From positions 30,691,501 to 30,755,500 of the forward strand of contig NC_091668.1 of NCBI RefSeq assembly GCF_042453785.1: DNA of 64,000 nucleotides, read 5' to 3'. Numbering within the stretch: position 1 is the first letter of the stretch; every line of letters begins with the position of its first letter. Below the pieces are notes generated by a model. It searched no databases. It was not told the DNA's origin and saw only the letters and a list, made by a program, of their open reading frames with translations. Shown here in pieces: positions 4,719 to 27,063 of this stretch. Made by a program: the position numbers and the translations under genes. The DNA is from Malus domestica (lineage: Eukaryota; Streptophyta; Magnoliopsida; Rosales; Rosaceae).

Positions 4719-7292
4719 ATGTCATTCTACCGCCTGCTCCTCCGCTCTCTCCGCCGCCCTTCTACCCCAACAACCCTACCCCTAACCCAGTCCCTCACCT
4801 CCCTCCACCTCCAAAGCTCTAACCCAAACATTCCTCTCCATCTCACCACCCCCACGCGCACCTTCGCTTTCTCCTCCGCCGAAGAAGCCGCTGCTGAGCG
4901 CAGACGTCGCAAGCGCCGCCTCCGCATCGAGCCCCCGCTCAACGCCCTCCGTCGGGACTCACGCCCCCCTCCCCCACGGGACCCGAACGCTCCCCGCCTA
5001 CCTGATACCACCTCCGCCCTCGTCGGCCCCCGCCTCAACCTCCACAACCGCGTCCAGTCGCTCATCCGAGCCGGAGACTTGGACGCAGCCTCCGAGGTTG
5101 CACGCCACTCGGTTTTCTCCAACACTCGCCCCACCGTCTTCACCTGCAACGCCATTGTGGCTGCAATGTATCGCGCCAAGAGGTACAATGACGCTATTGC
5201 CCTTTTCCACTTCTTCTTCAATCAATCAAACATTGTTCCTAACATTGTATCTTATAATAATTTGATTAATACTCATTGCGATGAGGGCCGTGTCGATGTG
5301 GGACTGGAGATTTATCGGCATGTAATTGCAAATTGCCCCTACAGTCCCTCGCCAGTGACATACCGGCATTTGACTAAAGGGTTGGTTGATGCTGGGAGGA
5401 TAGGTGAGGGTGTGGACTTGTTGAGGGAGATGTTGAATAAGGGCCACGGAGCGGATTCTTTGGTTTTTAATAATTTGATTAAGGGGTTCTTACATTTGGA
5501 GAATATGGAGAAGGCTGTTGAGCTTTTTGATGAGCTTAAAGAGAGATGTTTGGTTTATGATGGGGTTGTGAATTCGACCTTTATGGATTGGTTTTTCAAC
5601 CAGGGGAAAGAGAAGGAGGCGATGGAGTCATACAAGTCCTTGCTTGATAGGCAGTTTAGGATGGTCCCGGCAACTTGTAATGTTCTCTTGGAGGTACTGC
5701 TTAAGCATGGGAAGAAGAAGGAAGCCTTGGATTTGTTCGATCAGATGTTGGATAATCACACCCCACCAAATTTCCAGGCTGTGAATTCGGAAACATTTAA
5801 CATTATGGTTAACGAGTGTTTTAAGCTTGGAAAGTGCGATGAGGTAATTGCCACCTTTAAGAAGGTGGGGACAAAGGTGAATTCAAAGCCGTTTTCTATG
5901 GACGTTGCAGGGTATAACAATATCATTGCTAGGTATTGTGAGAATGGGATGTTACCGGAGGCTGAGACACTGTTTGCAGAATTGTGCTCAAAGTCATTGA
6001 CCCCAGATGTCACGACTCATAGGACTCTGATTGATGCATATTTGAAAGTAGAGAGGATAGATGATGCTCTTAAGATATTTAGCAGGATGGTGGAGGTTGG
6101 TCTGCGAGTGGTTGCTAGTCTTGGTAATAGGGTGTTCGATGAATTGATTAAGAACGGGAAGGCAGTAGACTGTGCACAGATTTTGAAGAAAATGGGAGAA
6201 AAAGATCCAAAACCAGATGCCAGTTTTTATGATGCTGTGATCAAGGGGGTTTGCAATGAAGGTGTGCTTGATACAGGCCGTGATTTACTGGAAGAGATGG
6301 TGAGATATGGCATTGGTGTTCCTCCAGAATTGCAGCAATTTGTAAATGAGGTTTTTGGAGAAGCTGGGCGTGGCGAAGAGATTCAGAGAGTATTAAATAC
6401 AAATAGGTGGGGATATCGATCACTACCTAGAGAGGCACCACCTCAGCAATTCCAACCAAGATCGCCTCAAATGGCGGGACAATATCGTCCATCGTCGGCA
6501 CCGCCCCAAATGACTGGACAATATCAGCCGCCATCTGGACCCTATCAGCCACCATCTGGAACCTATCACTATCAGTCACCATCTGGAACCAATCAGCCAC
6601 CTTCTGGACCCTATCAGCCACCATCTGGAACCTATCAGCCGCCTTCTGGACCCTATCAGCAACCATCTGGAACCTATCAGCCACCATCTGCAACCTATCA
6701 GCCGCCATCTGGACCCTATCAGCCACCATCTGGAACCTATCAGCCACCATCTGGAGCCTATCAGCCGCCTTCTGGACCCTATCAGCCGCCTTCTGGACCC
6801 TATCAGCCACCATCTGGAACCAATCAGCCACCTTCTGGAACCTATCAGCCGCCATCCGGAACCTATCAGCCACCATCCGGAACCTGTAAGCCACCATCCG
6901 GAACCAATCAGCCGCCTTCTGGACCCTATCAGCCACCATCTGGAACCTATCAGCCACCATCTGGAACCAATCAGCCGCCTTCTGGACCCTATCAAATGAC
7001 TGGAACTTACCAATCACCACCAAGACCTCCACATATGGCTACAAGCCAGCACCCCACAGCTCAATCCCCTCAAATGGCTGGACAATATTACACTCCATCA
7101 GGAGCCCCCCAAACGGCAGTACCACACCACCCTCCGTCCAGACTCCCTCATGTGACAGCTTCGTACATGCCATCTGAAGATTTTCAGAGCTTAGGACCAC
7201 AACACCCTCTGTCAGGACCTGCTCAAGGGACAGGATCTGACCAATCACCATCAGAACCCGCTCAAATTACAGAACAGGTAGCAGCTGCTTGA
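4719..7292 (+). CDS. GRP23: GRP23-type pentatricopeptide repeat protein with YQPPSG-repeat tail
   Basis: Single-exon, 857-residue P-class PPR protein. I chose the ATG at 4719 (MSFYRLLLRSLRRPS); the frame is open further upstream only from a TTG. The Arg/Ser-rich, acid-poor N-terminus looks like a mitochondrial presequence. About ten or more PPR units run from roughly residue 105 to 545 (for example TFNIMVNECFKLGKCDEVI and VTTHRTLIDAYLKVERIDDA). From about residue 600 to 760 the protein is a tandem array of near-decamers of the form YQPPSGT/P/A, followed by a Pro/Gln/Ser-rich tail. Arabidopsis GRP23 (At1g10270) has the same PPR-plus-Gln-rich layout, is embryo-essential and is linked to mitochondrial RNA editing complexes. 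The repeat array here is species-specific in detail. N-terminal codons are C-rich, while the PPR part is AT-richer. Confidence 0.88.
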   Translation: MSFYRLLLRSLRRPSTPTTLPLTQSLTSLHLQSSNPNIPLHLTTPTRTFAFSSAEEAAAERRRRKRRLRIEPPLNALRRDSRPPPPRDPNAPRLPDTTSALVGPRLNLHNRVQSLIRAGDLDAASEVARHSVFSNTRPTVFTCNAIVAAMYRAKRYNDAIALFHFFFNQSNIVPNIVSYNNLINTHCDEGRVDVGLEIYRHVIANCPYSPSPVTYRHLTKGLVDAGRIGEGVDLLREMLNKGHGADSLVFNNLIKGFLHLENMEKAVELFDELKERCLVYDGVVNSTFMDWFFNQGKEKEAMESYKSLLDRQFRMVPATCNVLLEVLLKHGKKKEALDLFDQMLDNHTPPNFQAVNSETFNIMVNECFKLGKCDEVIATFKKVGTKVNSKPFSMDVAGYNNIIARYCENGMLPEAETLFAELCSKSLTPDVTTHRTLIDAYLKVERIDDALKIFSRMVEVGLRVVASLGNRVFDELIKNGKAVDCAQILKKMGEKDPKPDASFYDAVIKGVCNEGVLDTGRDLLEEMVRYGIGVPPELQQFVNEVFGEAGRGEEIQRVLNTNRWGYRSLPREAPPQQFQPRSPQMAGQYRPSSAPPQMTGQYQPPSGPYQPPSGTYHYQSPSGTNQPPSGPYQPPSGTYQPPSGPYQQPSGTYQPPSATYQPPSGPYQPPSGTYQPPSGAYQPPSGPYQPPSGPYQPPSGTNQPPSGTYQPPSGTYQPPSGTCKPPSGTNQPPSGPYQPPSGTYQPPSGTNQPPSGPYQMTGTYQSPPRPPHMATSQHPTAQSPQMAGQYYTPSGAPQTAVPHHPPSRLPHVTASYMPSEDFQSLGPQHPLSGPAQGTGSDQSPSEPAQITEQVAAA
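6523..7000 (+). repeat. coding minisatellite (YQPPSG units)
   Basis: Tandem in-frame units of about 21-30 bp with core CAGCCACCATCTGGAACC run through the C-terminal part of the PPR gene, about twenty in all. Variation is mostly at the last residue (T, P, A) and at Tyr/Asn. Unit lengths are multiples of three, so copy-number change would keep frame. Confidence 0.9.
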
Positions 7293-18362: not shown

Positions 18363-19105
18363 TTTACATTGAACCATTTCTTATCGTAATTCATGGGTTG
18401 CTAGCGCAAATATAGTGCAATCTAATGTTTTGATGCATACTTGATTCGGTCTCAAATGCGATATGTTGTAATTCTTTCTAATTTCATTGTTTACCTATCT
18501 TTGTGTGGATTAGGCGGTACTGGAAACAGTTGCGAGAGTAAAGTCGAAGAAAAATTAGACGAAGGAAGATACACCAACATTGATAGATCACAATGTAAGA
18601 TTGCTTCATGGAAAATATAATTGCTCCGGTTATTTATCTTGACAGACCTAAATGTAACTTTGTTTTTAATATTTTTAGGACAGTGTCTTCATAATATCAA
18701 ATTTTAAATCAAAATATCCAATGCTGCAACTAGACTTGAGGCAAACTTACTGGCTCATTACAGTTTCGTTAAGTTCATTGGTCTTCTCTTAACAAAAAAT
18801 GCTGATTTGAACTCATCTACTGGTTTCGTTGTAGATTAATATCAGATTTGGTGGTCGTTATTGTATCTGCAACCTGCGGTGGCATTGCCTTTGCTTGCGC
18901 TGGACAACCGATCTGTTACATTCATAAGTACATACGTGTGTACATATATTTCCAAACTTATAGAGAAAACTTAATGCCATGATCTTACTTAATGTTCATA
19001 TTCTGCTTCCTTCATACCAAAACTTGACAGGTTATTAGTGAATATTTGCTGGCTAGATCCGTTATGGACCTTGGAGGTTTCAACTTCGTCAGTGAAATGG
19101 TTCAA

Positions 19106-20201
19106 GTACGTTTTACCCTGCAATTTTATTATCCAACAATAAATTCTTCAAATCCAAAAGTGTGCTTATATTCAGGGTATGGTTGCTTCGTCCTACAAAA
19201 CCAAAAGTGTATTTATATATTACGTATATACACTACTAATTTTGTTAGTACTAGGGACATAGTTGATTTTTCTACGTGTATGTATATGGGTTTGATTACA
19301 AAATTCTGTAGATTGAAAATGATACGTTATGTTATCATTTACTTGGTACATGAAGATGTTTTATTTTGAAAATGAAAGGTACACTATACTAGGAAGAGAT
19401 TGAAATTGGTGAAATGCTCACTGAGGCTGGTAAGGAACTGAAATTGGAAATTATGAAGCCACATCTTTTGTTTGATCTGAGTGTTAAATCATTGGATGGA
19501 GCTTTTGTTGCAGTTATCTTGACACTATATGCTGCGAATATCTTGACACACTATAATAGGTTTTCTTTTTAGCAAGTTTGAGTTTCTTATTCGCATTCAT
19601 GATTTTGAAATCATTTACATTTTTTTTTTTGCATGATATCTCATAAATTGAATTTGAATATATTTATTATATTTTAACTTTTTTTAGCCAAGCAAATGAT
19701 TTGATTGATAACTTAAAGTCGATTTCTTTTTCTTTATGTCTACATATTACAGGGGCAACGAGGATGGGGGTTAAGTCAAACGCATGTGTGGGAAAGATTC
19801 CAAGATTATTCAGTAAGTTACTGATTAAGTCAAATTAAACTACACCTTCATTTCTTTTTGTGTCCATGGTCTAATTTTACTTGGATGATTTAATTCTATG
19901 GGATGATTTCTTCTGGGGTTTTTCCATTTTTTATTTTAAATACATTTAAGGTTGAAGAAGTCAGCGATGGAATTTTGGATGCCAAAGAGAAGAAGCCTGG
20001 TATTGTTTCTTCTTTCTTTTTGAGTGAGCATCTCTTTCTTTTCTTCTTTCTTTTTGTTGTTGAATGTTTCAAAATTTCAACTCACCATGTTCATGTGCAT
20101 TGTTGAGGAGTGTACCATTATTCAATTACTTTGTGTAGAAATTATTCATGCATGTTCCGACTAATACATTCAATCCTCGCAGCGAAGCGCGGACACATTT
20201 T
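19106..20201. other. unassigned AT-rich stretch leading to a Helitron terminus
   Basis: No supported coding sequence. Short exon-like scraps (near 19753-19811 and 19950-19998) could not be matched. The stretch ends at the Helitron-type terminus at 20176-20205. Confidence 0.4.
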
Positions 20202-20205: not shown

Positions 20206-20744
20206 TCAAGAACTAAAAACAATGTTTTGCAAAGAAAGATCTTCTAGATCTCTCGTAATACTATACTTAATCTAAGGATTTACACGAACACATATTTAAT
20301 TAAAGGGTAAATATCTGTTTACTATCCTCAAGTTTTGTGGTTTTCAACATTTGGTACATGAAGTTTTTTTCGTCCCAGAATCATACCTAAAGTGTTAATT
20401 TTGGAACAGTCTCATACATCCGTTAGTCAAACTGTTAACTCTGCCGTTAATTGATGATGTGGTGCTTATGTGGACAATGACTAGACACCACGTGTCATTA
20501 AAGGATCGACGTAGAAATTCAAAATTCAAAAAAATAATTATTTAAAAAAAAGTTAAAAAAAAAAAAAAAAAAATAAGCAAAACGCAGATTGCCTTCCCCA
20601 AATCCCCCCGTGCCCACCCTCCCACCCACACCCAGATCGTCTTCCTCAAATCCCCCCGTCCCCTCCCTCCTTCTCCCTCCCTTCTCTTCCCTGCAACCAT
20701 CCTCCCTGTTGATTATTGACTCGAACATGTAGTCAAAGTTCAAT

Positions 20745-21195
20745 TCTTTGGGCTACTTTGTGGTAATGGGAGACAAACTACAATTGTGCCTAACTCTTTG
20801 TGCCTAACTCTTTTGACTTGATGGTAGGCCTTTGGCCATTGATGTCTTTGAGAAGCTTTTCTTTGGGTATAAAAGGGGAGCAAGGTGCAGCCCATAAGCA
20901 TAGAAGAGGAGAACAAGGAAGAAAGAAAAATAGCAAGAAGCCATTCGGCATAGAGAAGAATTTTCTCAAATTGTCTTGCTTTGTATTTTTGGTTTTCTCT
21001 TCCTATTGTAAGTGTGAGAGCTTGGTTATTCGGGTCTTTGGGAAATTGAGTGATAAACACTATTGTATGTTCTCATTGATTATAGTGGAATACTCCGTTG
21101 TCTCCAAACTGAATGTAGGCATTGCCAAACCAGTATAAATCTTGGTGTTCTTGTTGATGTTGGTTTTATTCTGTTCTGTTTTACTTATTCACTTA
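20745..21195 (+). promoter_or_regulatory. LTR-like promoter fragment inside the Pack-MULE
   Basis: Contains TATAAAAGG at 20868-20876, then a polypurine leader, and ends in a motif run (near TGTAGGCATTGCCAAACC at 21114) resembling the 3' part of plant copia LTRs. It lies directly upstream of the captured IRX14 leader. The copia assignment is by motif style only. Confidence 0.5.
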
Positions 21196-21345
21196 CAGTG
21201 GATGCCGCTTCCGCACAACACTCCCTGCAAACCCACCCATTCCCTCCCATTCTTAGCTCCAGAGACCACACAACAAACAAGCCCACCTCTCTAATTCTTA
21301 GCTCGGCTTTCCCTCTCTAGGATTTGAGAGAGACAGAGAGAGATT

Positions 21346-21645
21346 ATGAAGCTCTCGGCTTTGCACCAGAGCTACCTCACTCGACAGAGTAACACCTTCA
21401 GGGGATCAGCGCCGTTGGACTCCACATCAGACGGCAAGTCGCCGGCGACGGTGTTCTGGCTACTACTCCACGGCCTCTGCTGCCTCATCAGCCTCTTCCT
21501 CGGCTTCCGCTTCTCTCTCCTCGTCTTCTTCTTCCTCTTCTCCACCTCCTCTTTGAATCTCTATTCGGCACCGTTTAGGAAAGTTGCTGATCTCACCGTC
21601 AGAAACCTAGAGCTCTCCGCGAACCCGATCGTGAATTGGGTTTAG
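21346..21645 (+). pseudogene. IRX14: IRX14-like GT43 xylan glycosyltransferase, captured first-exon fragment
   Basis: An open frame of 99 residues starts MKLSALHQSYLTRQSNTFRG, exactly as plant IRX14 begins, through the membrane anchor (about residues 35-58: ATVFWLLLHGLCCLISLFLG) to STSSLNLYSAPFRKV, and then stops after PIVNWV. The GT43 catalytic domain is absent, so it cannot make xylan. It could still encode a small Golgi-anchored peptide if transcribed from the upstream TATA region. It lies wholly inside the Mutator-like element, which explains its origin. Confidence 0.85.
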
Positions 21646-22624
21646 TTGCGTGCAAGCTTCTTTTGGGGATTATTGTGTAAAATTTCACTGAAAAATGTCC
21701 ACTGTGAGAAATTAGAAGGAATCATGGTTAGATCTGGTTGGTTGTCTAATACGAATATTGATTTGGGCTAATTGTTTGATTTGAATAGGAAGTCAGCTTA
21801 AAACAAACGAAAAAGCCATGCCAATCCAGGTAATTACTTCAACTAATTGGTGATGATTTGGGTTAATTCATAAAATCATTTATTAAGTCTTTCGATTTTA
21901 GTTGTGATGGGTTTGGAATAGATACTTTCTTTCTTATTTGTTTGATTGGAATGTGATTGGAAGTGGGCAGATGGGTGGAAGAGGAGCGGGCAGATGGGTG
22001 GGTGTGCGAGGTGGGTGGGTGTGCGGGGAGGGTGAGTACAGAGGAGATAAGGGAGGGAGAAGGAGTGGAATGGGTGGGTTTGTAGGGAGGATGTATGCAG
22101 GGAAGAGAAGGGAGGGAGAAGGAGGGAGGGGATGGGTCGATGGGAAGATCTGGGTGTGGGTGGGACTGTGGGCACGGGGGGATTTGAGGAAGACGATTTG
22201 GGTGTTGGGGAAGACGATCTGGGTTTTTCTTTCTTTTTTTAAAATTATTTTTTTGAATTTTGAATTTTCACATGGATCCTTTAATGACACGTGGCGTCCA
22301 GTCCTTGTCCACATAGATGTCACATCATCAGTTAACGGTAGACTTAATAGTTTGATTAACGGATGTAAGAGACTGTCTTAAAATTAACACTTTAGGTATA
22401 ACTTTGGGACGAAAAAAACTTCATGTACTAAATGTTGAAAATCACGAAACTTGAGGGTAGTAAACTGATATTTACCCTTAATTAAATATTGACTGCAACA
22501 AAGAGGATGAAATATTTATTTGTACGTAGAAGTAAATTTCGACAATGAAATATTTTGTTTGTACACATAGTTAAGTATATGGTTACATGCAAATTAAATG
22601 AACAAAAGAGGTAACTAAAAAAAA

Positions 22625-25396
22625 TCATGAACAAAGTTGAGAGGATGAAACTGGCGAAGTGGTAGTTGTTTTGTTGGCAGCTGTTTCTTGTTGTACAATA
22701 TCAATTTGAGATAACTCTGTATTCATCATGTTGTGCGTTTGTGTTCTTTGTGACAAAGATTGGTCTTTGTCTGTTTTATCTTGCTTGTTTTTGGCATCTC
22801 CCACCCACGAACCGATATATTGTTGTACATTTTGATCAAACTTGTACATGGTACCCATCTGAATCATCCAAACGGAAGAGATTATTTACTGTACAAATAA
22901 AATGAAAAAGACAAGGAAAAACAAAACAAGCAGTGAGAGAGAGACCGAGAGAGAGCTTACCTGGCTGACAAGTGCATACAAAGGTAGTGTGCTGTAACTG
23001 CAAAGCACTTGAACAATCACACTGCATACGGTGATGGAACCATGAGATGAGAGTAATTAAGTACACAAGTTGCTATATTATGTCGAATTGCTTCCTTATA
23101 GAATTCCATTACCCCATAATAAGTCTCGGCACGATGTACCCCAACTTTTCCATGATGCATGAACGAAATCCATACGTTGTCTGCAAACAAGTGAATCTTG
23201 ACTGTCAGTCATACGCAGATCCAAATCTGGAGGAATTGTAAGATATATATATATATATATATATTGCACAGTGCACACATACCCAGATCCAGAAGAAGAA
23301 TGCAATCTCAAATGAATTCTGGAACAATATGAAGTGGATCAAATTCAGAACAATGCGAGGGTTGTGAAACCAAAAGTGTTCGTCTGAAGGTTTCACTCTT
23401 GCACCTGCTCCATGATCACCCAGTGCTGTCGTCCCATGCGTAACCTCCTGAGCCAAACGGGTAATTATGTGTTCCAGCTTAGCGCCCACAAGAAGCAGAA
23501 GCTGTCATCCCATATCAAACATTAATCATTTTACATGCGATCATCTCCTCAAAGTCACTCAACAAGATTAATAGGAAATTATTGATTTCCAGTTCCACTT
23601 AAAATTAAGGGACCTTAAGGCAATACTCACAATCAGCGGCAAAAACGCTAACCAAAAATAGGTATGCCATCCTGCACATTCGAAGATATAGATTGTCAAG
23701 TACTTCACTCAGATATTTAATTCAGCTCAAATTGAGATTTTATTACAAGAGCTTACCTTCCACATTCAGCAACAAAAATAGCACAACAAAGAGCCATAGG
23801 TACCAGCTACACACACACACACATACATACGGTTGAGTGAATATGTATTACTATATTAGTCGACAATCAAATTCCATCTAATCTTCATACACGGCTCCGG
23901 CCACAAAAGGATCTTCATACTTATACGCAGCTGAGCTGCTTAACAAGAACAACAACAAAACCTCAACAGCCAGGCATTACCTTATCCCAACAATTTTTCT
24001 AAAATCAGCTTCAAGTGTCCGCATAATGTATTTGTGAAAATCAAATTGAGGATCCGAAGGGAAGTGCTCCTGAAACCAAACCGAGTCAGTCCCATACATT
24101 TTTGGTAATGACATGTCCACGGGAGAAACTTTAACCTTGATATGTGAACCACATAGAAACATGAAGGAGATATTAACCTTGGTAAACCCTTGTCGCAATG
24201 CAATGTAGTCCGGCTTAGAGACAGAACCATAAAATTGTTTGAAGAATGATATCTAGGAAAGTACATTAAACTGAGTGTTATCAGATATCTTAATCCTTCA
24301 TATTATATAGGAAATAATATAAAGCAACAAGGAATTTTGAGAACCATGCATATAGAGTCCATAATCTCCAACAACAAAACTATAGCAAACTCACCACCCA
24401 ACCTATGACAGCTGCTCTTCGCCAATATCCTACTCCTCGTTTACTCAAGAATTCACGATGTTGTCGTTGAGAAACATGCACATTTCCACCACTAGTTGCA
24501 TCTGCATAGGGTAGCGTTTATTCAATCATACAAAGCGGATACAAGCACTTGGATTGGCTAAAATATACTTGCAAATCCAATTTCATATTTACTCTTACCA
24601 GACTCCCAGCGCTTCCATTGACGTACCTACATATGGTAAACCGTATGTGTTACAACGTAGAGATACAAACCATATCCATCGCAGCACTATACAAACTGAA
24701 AGGTCCCAAACCATAAAGAGCTGGAATAGGACACCATGTTGTATCAAACATATTTAGATAATCATCCAAATAGTAAAAAAATTCTGAAACAAGCATTACC
24801 CTTGCCCCTCCAAGAACCATAGTTGTGACACAAAAGATCACATGCACAACTGCCAATACAAAGATGAAGATGTGTAGATGATGTAGTGCTTCCAATGATA
24901 ACAACGGAACCTTCCCCTAAGGAAATAGAAAAAAGCAAGCATAGTCCTGTAACTTTCTCTGCCAAAAAAGGGGAATACGCGCGCACACACACACACACCA
25001 AACTCATATTACAAGCATTGAAAGTGGTGGTAAAATGTATAAGGTACTAAAAATACAGTACCTTTTGCAGACAATTGTCTGAATTTGTATCTGTAGACAA
25101 AAGCCGCCGCCGGTTGTTTATAGATTGATCAAGAGAGTAATGTGCATTATTGTTTTCCTCAGAAGTTTCCCTCTTGCACGGAAGCATGTGATTTGCTAGA
25201 TTAGAGGGGATGCATATGCGTATTATGGAACGCTGAGATACAGTTAGTAGAAGGGAAATGAACCCTAAAAGCATCAACTCTGTTTCAACGATAGGAAACA
25301 CAATGATTAGTGTTAGTAAAGTATATAGGCATTCTTAATTTATGATCCATCCATCTAATTGGTCAAGATACAAGAATGAAATGATATGTTGGGAGG

Positions 25397-25437
<41 letters not shown>

Positions 25438-26715
25438 TCTTTTAATTTCTGTAGGGCTTCAAATAGCGCATCTTGTTTCTCATGCTTTAAGTACTGAATT
25501 TCCAGACCAAAAAAAAGAAAAAAAAAAAGTTAAACCAAACAGCAAACTAGTTGAAATTTTTTTGATGTGCCCAAATAACCCCTTGAAGAATTGTCCTATA
25601 GATAAGTTCAACTTTCCAAAAACAAAGCTAAGAGTACTCTATGACTCTATCCGTCAATAATTTGGAAGTAGGAAAAATCCTCATTTTTCAAGATTTTGGA
25701 CTTGTCTCGCAGCTTATCAATGCTACGTGCATCTTTTGTGACTGAGACATCTAAATTTCTGATAAGCTCCAAAACTTATTTCCTACAATTTTCTTACAAA
25801 ATTGTGATTTCAAGATTCGTTTCCCTCCCTTGGAACTATTTGAATCTCAACAGTATCAATTTCTGACAAATATTTATGGACTAAATAAGTTCCCGCCCTC
25901 CGTATATGCATTGCATTTATCACCTGTCAATACATTCTTGCTTATTCACATATTTCCATATTCACCAGCTGCTAAGAATTCTATAGATTGAATGAGGAGC
26001 AGTATGGTGATGACTGAAGACGATGAAGAACTAGCCTACTGTAATTACTTATTATTGTGGAACTGATGACAAAGGGTTATTTTTCTCCAAGTACCGATGA
26101 GGGAACAATGAAAGACAAACTCCATCCACCGCTACTGCTAGGGATCACTTAAGTTAAATCTAATTTATCATTGTTCTATTACTTCTTTTGACCCATTACC
26201 TATGTTCCTTACCCAGGGGCCTGATTCAAGCTGTCAACACTGGTAGAATTCTAGCAAGGTTGAGCTTTTTATGTAGGTGGTGTTAGCACTACATCTTCTG
26301 AATCATCATCATCGTCATGAACCTTGTGATCAAACTGATCCCTCCACTAAAGGATCTAGGCTAAGGCTAATTCAGTTATCAGATTTGTTAATGATTGTAT
26401 TTGCTAATATTGTTTCATGATGTTAGATTTGTTTGTGAACACTTTAGGTGAGGTGGCATGCCGGGGGAATGGGGATGGGGTGGCGCACGGTGGAAAAAAA
26501 TTTCCAGCATGGGAGGGAGAAAAAGCAAAAAGATTTCAAGTGTTATAATGATTGCAAATATGATAAGAGAGGGGGGAACAATGTTTAGATACCTTTCCGA
26601 GTTTATGAAGAGCGCGCTCGGCACAAAGAGAGAGCAGAACAATGACAAAGCAAACAAGCGCAACCACCCATGTCGGTGTATACTCTAAAGAGCTGTTGAG
26701 TTCTTCTTCTGCCAT
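22625..26715 (-). CDS. MLO: MLO-family seven-transmembrane protein (MLO1/13/15 type)
   Basis: Plasma-membrane calmodulin-binding MLO protein, 495 residues. Fourteen coding exons: 26715-26593, 25493-25436, 25279-25062, 24916-24800, 24626-24599, 24501-24395, 24252-24178, 24069-23981, 23806-23757, 23671-23631, 23501-23283, 23180-23113, 23021-22961 and 22858-22625. All junctions are GT-AG and in frame. Family blocks appear in order: SLEYTPTWVVALVCFVIVL, KEELMLLGFISLLLTVSQ, LEALHHLHIFIFVLAVVHVI, FFKQFYGSVSKPDYIALRQG, WYLWLFVVLFLLLNVEGWH, PRIVLNLIHFILFQNSFEIA, IMEKLGYIVPRLIMGV and CSYSTLPLYALVSQMG. The N-terminus is closest in memory to Arabidopsis MLO13. The C-tail is short and Thr/Ser/Gln-rich. 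A GA microsatellite lies in intron 2. Some MLO clades control powdery mildew susceptibility; this clade is not the classical one. Confidence 0.92.
25391..25434. repeat. GA microsatellite abutting an MLO splice donor
   Basis: A run of about twenty GA units on the plus strand. On the gene's minus strand it is a CT tract starting immediately after the donor of coding exon 2 (GT at 25435-25434). Confidence 0.85.
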
Positions 26716-26949
26716 ATAGCTTGATCACACCAAAATGAACAATCCACCAACAAAGATTGCCGCGGTGAGCATTTTAGGTTGGGACGGAAATGAATGTTGT
26801 TTTAATTGATTGCGAACTTTAAATATGTAAGTATAGGGAAAATTTGATTCTGGGGACAAAGAATACCCTTTTCCGAAGCAAAGGAAAAAGAAGAGAATAA
26901 AGGGAGAAGCAAATAAATTGGGGGTACTCATATTCGAGGTGGCCGTGCA

Positions 26950-27063
26950 TTTCAAGTAATGTACATAATTTGAATCATATATTATTGTTAGCTTATTATG
27001 AAGTTTAGCTCATTTCCCCACAATTTAATGTAAATAATATCGTTTGTTAAAAAAAAAAAAAAA
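26950..27063 (+). mobile_element. SINE copy upstream of the MLO gene
   Basis: TTGAATCATATATTATTG through an 18-base A-run, homologous to the SINEs at 11671-11798 and, inverted, 38359-38497. The sequence after its tail (GTGTGACAAAATTTTGG...) is also shared with the 11.8 kb locus. Confidence 0.65.

Follow-up and report, generated by a model that had tools for sequence, protein, structure and literature searches.

Pack-MULEs, reportedly described in rice by Jiang et al. in 2004, shared with the element analysed here long inverted repeats, a 9-bp target duplication (class range 9- to 11-bp), the finding of no transposase inside, joined pieces of two host genes and several copies. No essential difference was seen; a solo LTR nested in the element was a later event. 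Like Ty1-copia solo LTRs, this LTR had TG...CA ends, a 5-bp duplication and no internal region, and its relatives occurred as pairs whose two LTRs were separated by about 4.7 kb, one relative having a PF07727 reverse transcriptase next to it, but it lay inside another transposon and in sense with a captured frame. The captured frame had the same first 97 codons (cytosolic tail, membrane helix and following stretch) as IRX14, a GT43 protein of the xylan synthase complex, but was without the GT43 domain and ended in a foreign C-terminal W-V-stop. Among the titles and abstract openings that were judged, with subscription literature mostly outside the scope, no paper on this element was found.

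The window, that is the whole 64,000-nucleotide stretch analysed, was C8:30691501–30755500 of a Malus domestica genome (G000; 651 Mb, 19 contigs). We read its element as an ordinary chimeric Pack-MULE with two captures and a nested solo LTR, in which a 99-codon frame would be a neutral remnant (probability about 0.88).

Anatomy of the element and its target site

As listed in Table 1, a perfect 9-bp target duplication, TTAATTAAA, flanked a non-autonomous Mutator-like element at 20305–22477 with the ends GGGTAAATATC...GATATTTACCC. The first-pass annotation had placed a Pack-MULE at 20296–22486; the element was present, and that span took in the target repeats as well. Inverted-repeat arms (20296–20707 and 22084–22486) were 83% identical over ~400 bp, bearing out the repeats of about this length that it had noted. 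Arms, LTR and two gene pieces covered nearly the whole element. Nine frames across the element had a length of 75 aa or more; none of them matched Pfam at E<=0.01, and no transposase domain was found inside. A genome search with PF10551 (150 of 482 candidates scored) listed no match in the element and at least 151 MULE transposase matches elsewhere in the genome. The transposase may have been supplied in trans.

Table 1. Features of the element in the window, with its sister copies (positions are those of the window unless a contig is named)
Feature	Position	Strand	Remark
Left target-site duplication TTAATTAAA	20296..20304	.	single copy at the L059 empty site
Left terminal inverted repeat arm, inner part C/T-rich	20305..20706	+	solo LTR inserted at inner edge
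Left CTCCC, 5-bp duplication of LTR insertion	20702..20706	.	
Solo LTR, 514 bp, Ty1-copia family	20707..21220	+	TATA-like sequence near 20868, read by eye
Right CTCCC, 5-bp duplication of LTR insertion	21221..21225	.	
Captured IRX14 piece: 90 nt 5'UTR and first 97 codons	21256..21636	+	
Open frame, 99 codons and stop	21346..21645	+	97 IRX14 codons, then W, V, TAG from second capture
Captured SERF-like (PF04419) piece: intron 1 end, short exon 2, intron 2 start	21634..21967	+	
Right terminal inverted repeat arm, inner part G-rich	21968..22477	-	inner limit approximate: pairing to 22084 or 22026
Right target-site duplication TTAATTAAA	22478..22486	.	
C8 sister	C8:9825253-9835779		split by insert with terminal 361-bp repeats 95.6% alike
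C4 sister	C4:11124898-11126441		right repeat not detected
C6 sister	C6:3013212-3015618		rearranged; ~1.2-kb insert within frame

The right flank (22487–24600) had a 94% copy on the opposite strand at C8:31185353–31187447. In this copy, 0.47 Mb off (L059, C8:31.187 Mb), 20214–20304 adjoined 22478–26971, and the overlap was exactly the nine target bases. It was thus an empty site, holding the target 9-mer once and no element, indicating that the element was inserted after the flank had been duplicated; the 9-bp repeats reported earlier are confirmed by it as well as by their perfect match. On the left, the element abutted other repeats, pieces of 18800–20115 matching many places at 70–94%.

On the right of the element lay an MLO-family gene (22625–24916, - strand), with its stop at 22625, 148 bp from the element. 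Four of its five scanned frames matched PF03094, one of these below the cut-off, and the fifth gave no match. An AATAAA was read by eye at 22520–22515 on the - strand, near the element end. The gene was duplicated in inverted orientation at C8:31183071–31187456 (L059), ~0.47 Mb off (91% over 4.5 kb), and the Pack-MULE adjoined only one of the two MLO copies, 148 bp past its stop. Elsewhere in the window were a CLC chloride channel gene (PF00654, 31457–33633, +), a Core-2/I-Branching enzyme-like frame (PF02485, 10085–10825, -) and, at 6430–7174, strongly repetitive frames on both strands with units such as ISHHLEPISRLLDP, perhaps a minisatellite.

A 263-bp query from the terminal inverted repeat (TIR) gave at least 43 matches in the genome (40 of 2659 candidates scored), and 11 elements of the family were fetched, picked because both ends were listed close together, a choice that favours intact ones. 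With the window element included, perfect 9-bp duplications were found in 10 of 12; the other two (L064 and L065), near-identical copies, scored 8 of 9. Among 132 mispaired-flank controls, none matched at 9 positions and 10 matched at 8. The duplications of the family fit Mutator-like elements. L071 had too short an interior for comparison; among the other 10 fetched elements, L061/L068 and L064/L065 had interiors that formed related pairs, and none of the 10 was related to the window interior. L060, also retrieved, was left out of the analysis. L064 (C6:2940000–2941950) and L065 (C6:2873380–2875310), together with C6:2971671–2971934, belonged to the same TIR family and lay within 140 kb of the C6 sister in Table 1; with interiors 96% alike and identical flanks, L064 and L065 probably lie in a local duplication.

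Two captured gene pieces, their donors and sister copies

The IRX14 piece matched C2:15247384–15247778 at 90%, C15:26045815–26046195 at 88% and C13:19611481–19611843 at 83%, and GT43 (PF03360) matches lay near all three IRX14-like places. The name IRX14 rests on the first-pass call, on these nearby PF03360 matches and on a published membrane motif (PMC9874913). The C2 donor frame ran on past the captured 97 codons (280 aa open). A Pack-MULE carrying an IRX14 capture, as first proposed, is supported. The capture had been described as a first exon with its own ATG and stop: 5'UTR, ATG and 97 codons were indeed present, perhaps less than a whole first exon, and the stop was not that of IRX14, its TAG coming from a second captured piece that had been overlooked.

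This second, SERF-like piece was 78% identical to C2:15965623–15966014 and 72% to C15:26862108–26862488. Exons 1 and 2 of the C2 SERF-like gene matched PF04419 (E=6.7e-10), and exon 2 with its splice borders was contained in the window element. The two C2 donor genes were ~0.72 Mb apart, and both the IRX14 and the SERF-like donor had AAT at the junction. In trees of the IRX14 and SERF-like pieces, the C2 branches were short (0.020 and 0.018), those of C15 were long (0.082 and 0.139), and the stems of the element measured 0.014 and 0.047. These branch lengths suggest that the donors were the C2 genes, captured after C2 and C15 had parted; the trees were unrooted, with three groups meeting at one node, so that bootstrap values cannot choose between a C2 and a C15 donor. 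The branching order among the four element copies was unsettled (support 44–69).

A further IRX14 relative, at C13:19610507–19611750 (L016, L058), held GT43 in one open frame (profile 2–207), while the GT43 matches at C2 and C15 spanned profile 69–207 only. It was near C15 in 5'UTR and exon, with ACA replacing the ATG, and appears to be a processed retrocopy that derives from C15.

The search for a donor and for sister copies that the first-pass annotation had advised also found the same IRX14-SERF chimera at three further places, on C8, C4 and C6 (Table 1). All four copies had the IRX14-SERF junction and lacked the same 42 bp of the SERF donor, indicating a single capture event. On the reading favoured here, a non-autonomous Mutator-like element copied one piece each from an IRX14 and a SERF-like gene and set the two side by side inside its inverted repeats. 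The chimera then reached four or more sites, at one of which it inserted ~150 bp past the stop codon of the MLO-family gene.

The nested solo LTR and the 99-codon frame

A TATA-containing, LTR-like piece just upstream of the frame and in the same orientation had been noted before, and it proved to be the solo LTR of Table 1, starting with TG, ending with CA and flanked on both sides by CTCCC. Its sequence matched at least 36 other places at 88–97% (40 candidates scored), many of them as LTR pairs; two pairs that were compared were 98.6 and 99.0% alike. One 88-residue piece beside the LTR of a family member (L007) matched PF07727 (RVT_2, which we take to be the copia-type reverse transcriptase) with E=1.7e-30.

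All three sister copies were without the LTR and read straight through its insertion site, indicating that it reached the window copy alone, after capture and spread. A Ty1-copia retrotransposon would have inserted at the inner edge of the left repeat of this copy, and recombination between its LTRs may have left the solo LTR. The earlier statement that the element fuses an LTR-like promoter to the IRX14 exon therefore does not hold, the LTR being a later, separate copia insertion found in one of four copies. A capture that carried the LTR along was rejected, since all three sisters lack it and it has a 5-bp duplication of its own. Its sense orientation, a single case (n=1), would be chance or retention.

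In the three sisters the junction read AAT-TAG, with the stop after codon 97; in the window the junction TAG became TGG, so its frame is two codons longer. The window and C8 frames were open, all 97 codons being free of stops and frameshifts, and the other two sister frames were broken, in C4 by a 1-bp insertion and a 9-bp deletion and in C6 by the large insert of Table 1 together with a TGA stop in codon 38 (a 1-bp insertion at the alignment join of C6 was left out of the count). Private changes of the window copy in the 97 codons were 4 synonymous and 6 nonsynonymous. Under neutral spectra drawn from the element's noncoding changes (expected synonymous share 0.36–0.38), P(S>=4 of 10) was 0.50–0.57, and the chance that the window frame escaped every stop or start loss was 0.71–0.77. 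Private changes of the window and C8 copies together were synonymous in 8 of 17 cases (P 0.23–0.31), and those of the four copies pooled in 20 of 48 (P 0.23–0.36). Open copies (8/17) and broken copies (12/31) did not stand apart.

The strongest hint of constraint on the frame came from the comparison of the window with the C8 sister, in which 11 of 22 differences were synonymous (dN/dS 0.30, P 0.12–0.18), with few changes and low power. Crude pairwise dN/dS values among the window, C8, C4, C6 and C2 sequences were 0.28–0.54, and 0.30–0.54 among the element copies; they are not comparable to 1, because the C-to-T-biased spectrum gives a neutral value of ~0.53–0.59. The Ka/Ks comparison with the donor that was proposed in the first-pass annotation falls within the wider of these ranges. 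As judged from these substitutions, the 99-codon frame shows no significant selection and is indistinguishable, over few changes, from neutral sequence; it would be functionless, though it may be under weak constraint.

Window-private changes were denser at coding (11/297) than at noncoding (6/452) sites, and the direction was the same in all four copies. The coding part was CG-rich (25 CG in its 291 bases; the 450 noncoding bases had 5), and C to T or G to A accounted for 7 of 10 window-private changes, so that a likely explanation of the faster coding change is the loss of methylated C.

Possible products of the locus

The window copy looks less like a new gene than like ordinary transposon debris in decay, though its short frame is still open. 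Any transcript would likeliest be a TE-like RNA feeding small-RNA silencing, rather than the message of a working peptide. The element may lie at the end of the MLO transcript, through which any effect would arise more simply than through the peptide.

It is conceivable, if unlikely, that the locus triggers silencing. Transcripts spanning the inverted repeats, started in the LTR (+ strand) or read through from the MLO gene (- strand), would give double-stranded RNA, and the small RNAs made from it would act on the element family and possibly on the IRX14 or SERF-like donor. The 83% likeness of the ~400-bp arms, the 148-bp distance of the element end from the MLO stop, near the AATAAA on the - strand, and the 90% match with the IRX14 donor along 381 bp are consistent with this, as is the description of captured maize sequences as siRNA reservoirs in PMC13317346. 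Against it, the 10% divergence from IRX14, and the larger one from SERF, limits action on the donors, and MLO read-through is an assumed step.

With an open frame and an intact motif, a new transcription unit for a Golgi-anchored peptide is possible in principle. We consider it very improbable that the solo LTR starts a transcript for the 99-residue IRX14 anchor and that the product sits in the Golgi membrane, pairs by its helix motif with IRX9 or IRX14 and changes xylan synthesis; that the window copy is a newborn, LTR-driven, anchor-only IRX14 microprotein altering xylan synthase assembly would be slightly less probable still. The TATA-bearing LTR lies upstream in sense orientation, the frame is open, and 11 of 22 changes between the two open frames were synonymous. 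On the other side stand the lack of a significant selection signal, the faster change of coding than of noncoding sites and a predicted leader with four upstream ATGs between the assumed start at 20899 (taken from the TATA-like site) and the frame, their frames of 1 to 45 codons all ending ahead of it. LTRs also carry the poly(A) site of their retroelement, and this one would bring its own.

The IRX14 motif WxxxHxxCCxxSxxLGxRFS was complete in one of four copies, that of the window. This favours the peptide at first sight, but if 6 replacements fall at random among 97 codons, all 12 motif residues are spared with a chance of ~45%, (85/97)^6, so retention is uninformative and was dropped as a sign of function. 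PMC9874913 proposes that the IRX14 transmembrane motif could pair helices. According to PMC4132061, a truncated IRX9 with anchor and linker only was reported to keep partial function, in favour of the peptide, and altering the DDS motif of IRX14 did not make the protein dominant-negative in Arabidopsis, against it. The suggestion of the first-pass annotation that the peptide might compete with full IRX14 for partners is speculative and found no support in this analysis.

That the locus is an assembly artefact, or a genuine IRX14 gene with further exons that escaped notice, is almost certainly wrong: the open frame and nothing further speaks for it, whereas the frame ends at a junction with another gene's intron, the genome's 15 PF03360 matches all lie outside this region, none of the nine frames across the element matches Pfam, the same chimera stands at three other places, and the empty site speaks against it.

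Read as a chimeric Pack-MULE, the locus cleanly documents the capture of two genes, the spread of the chimera and a nested insertion, since one genome contains both donors, three sisters and an empty site. It illustrates how chance events in transposon debris can yield an open frame that has a motif and a promoter upstream. Should this frame be expressed, nature would have provided a test of whether the IRX14 anchor can enter the xylan synthase complex by itself.
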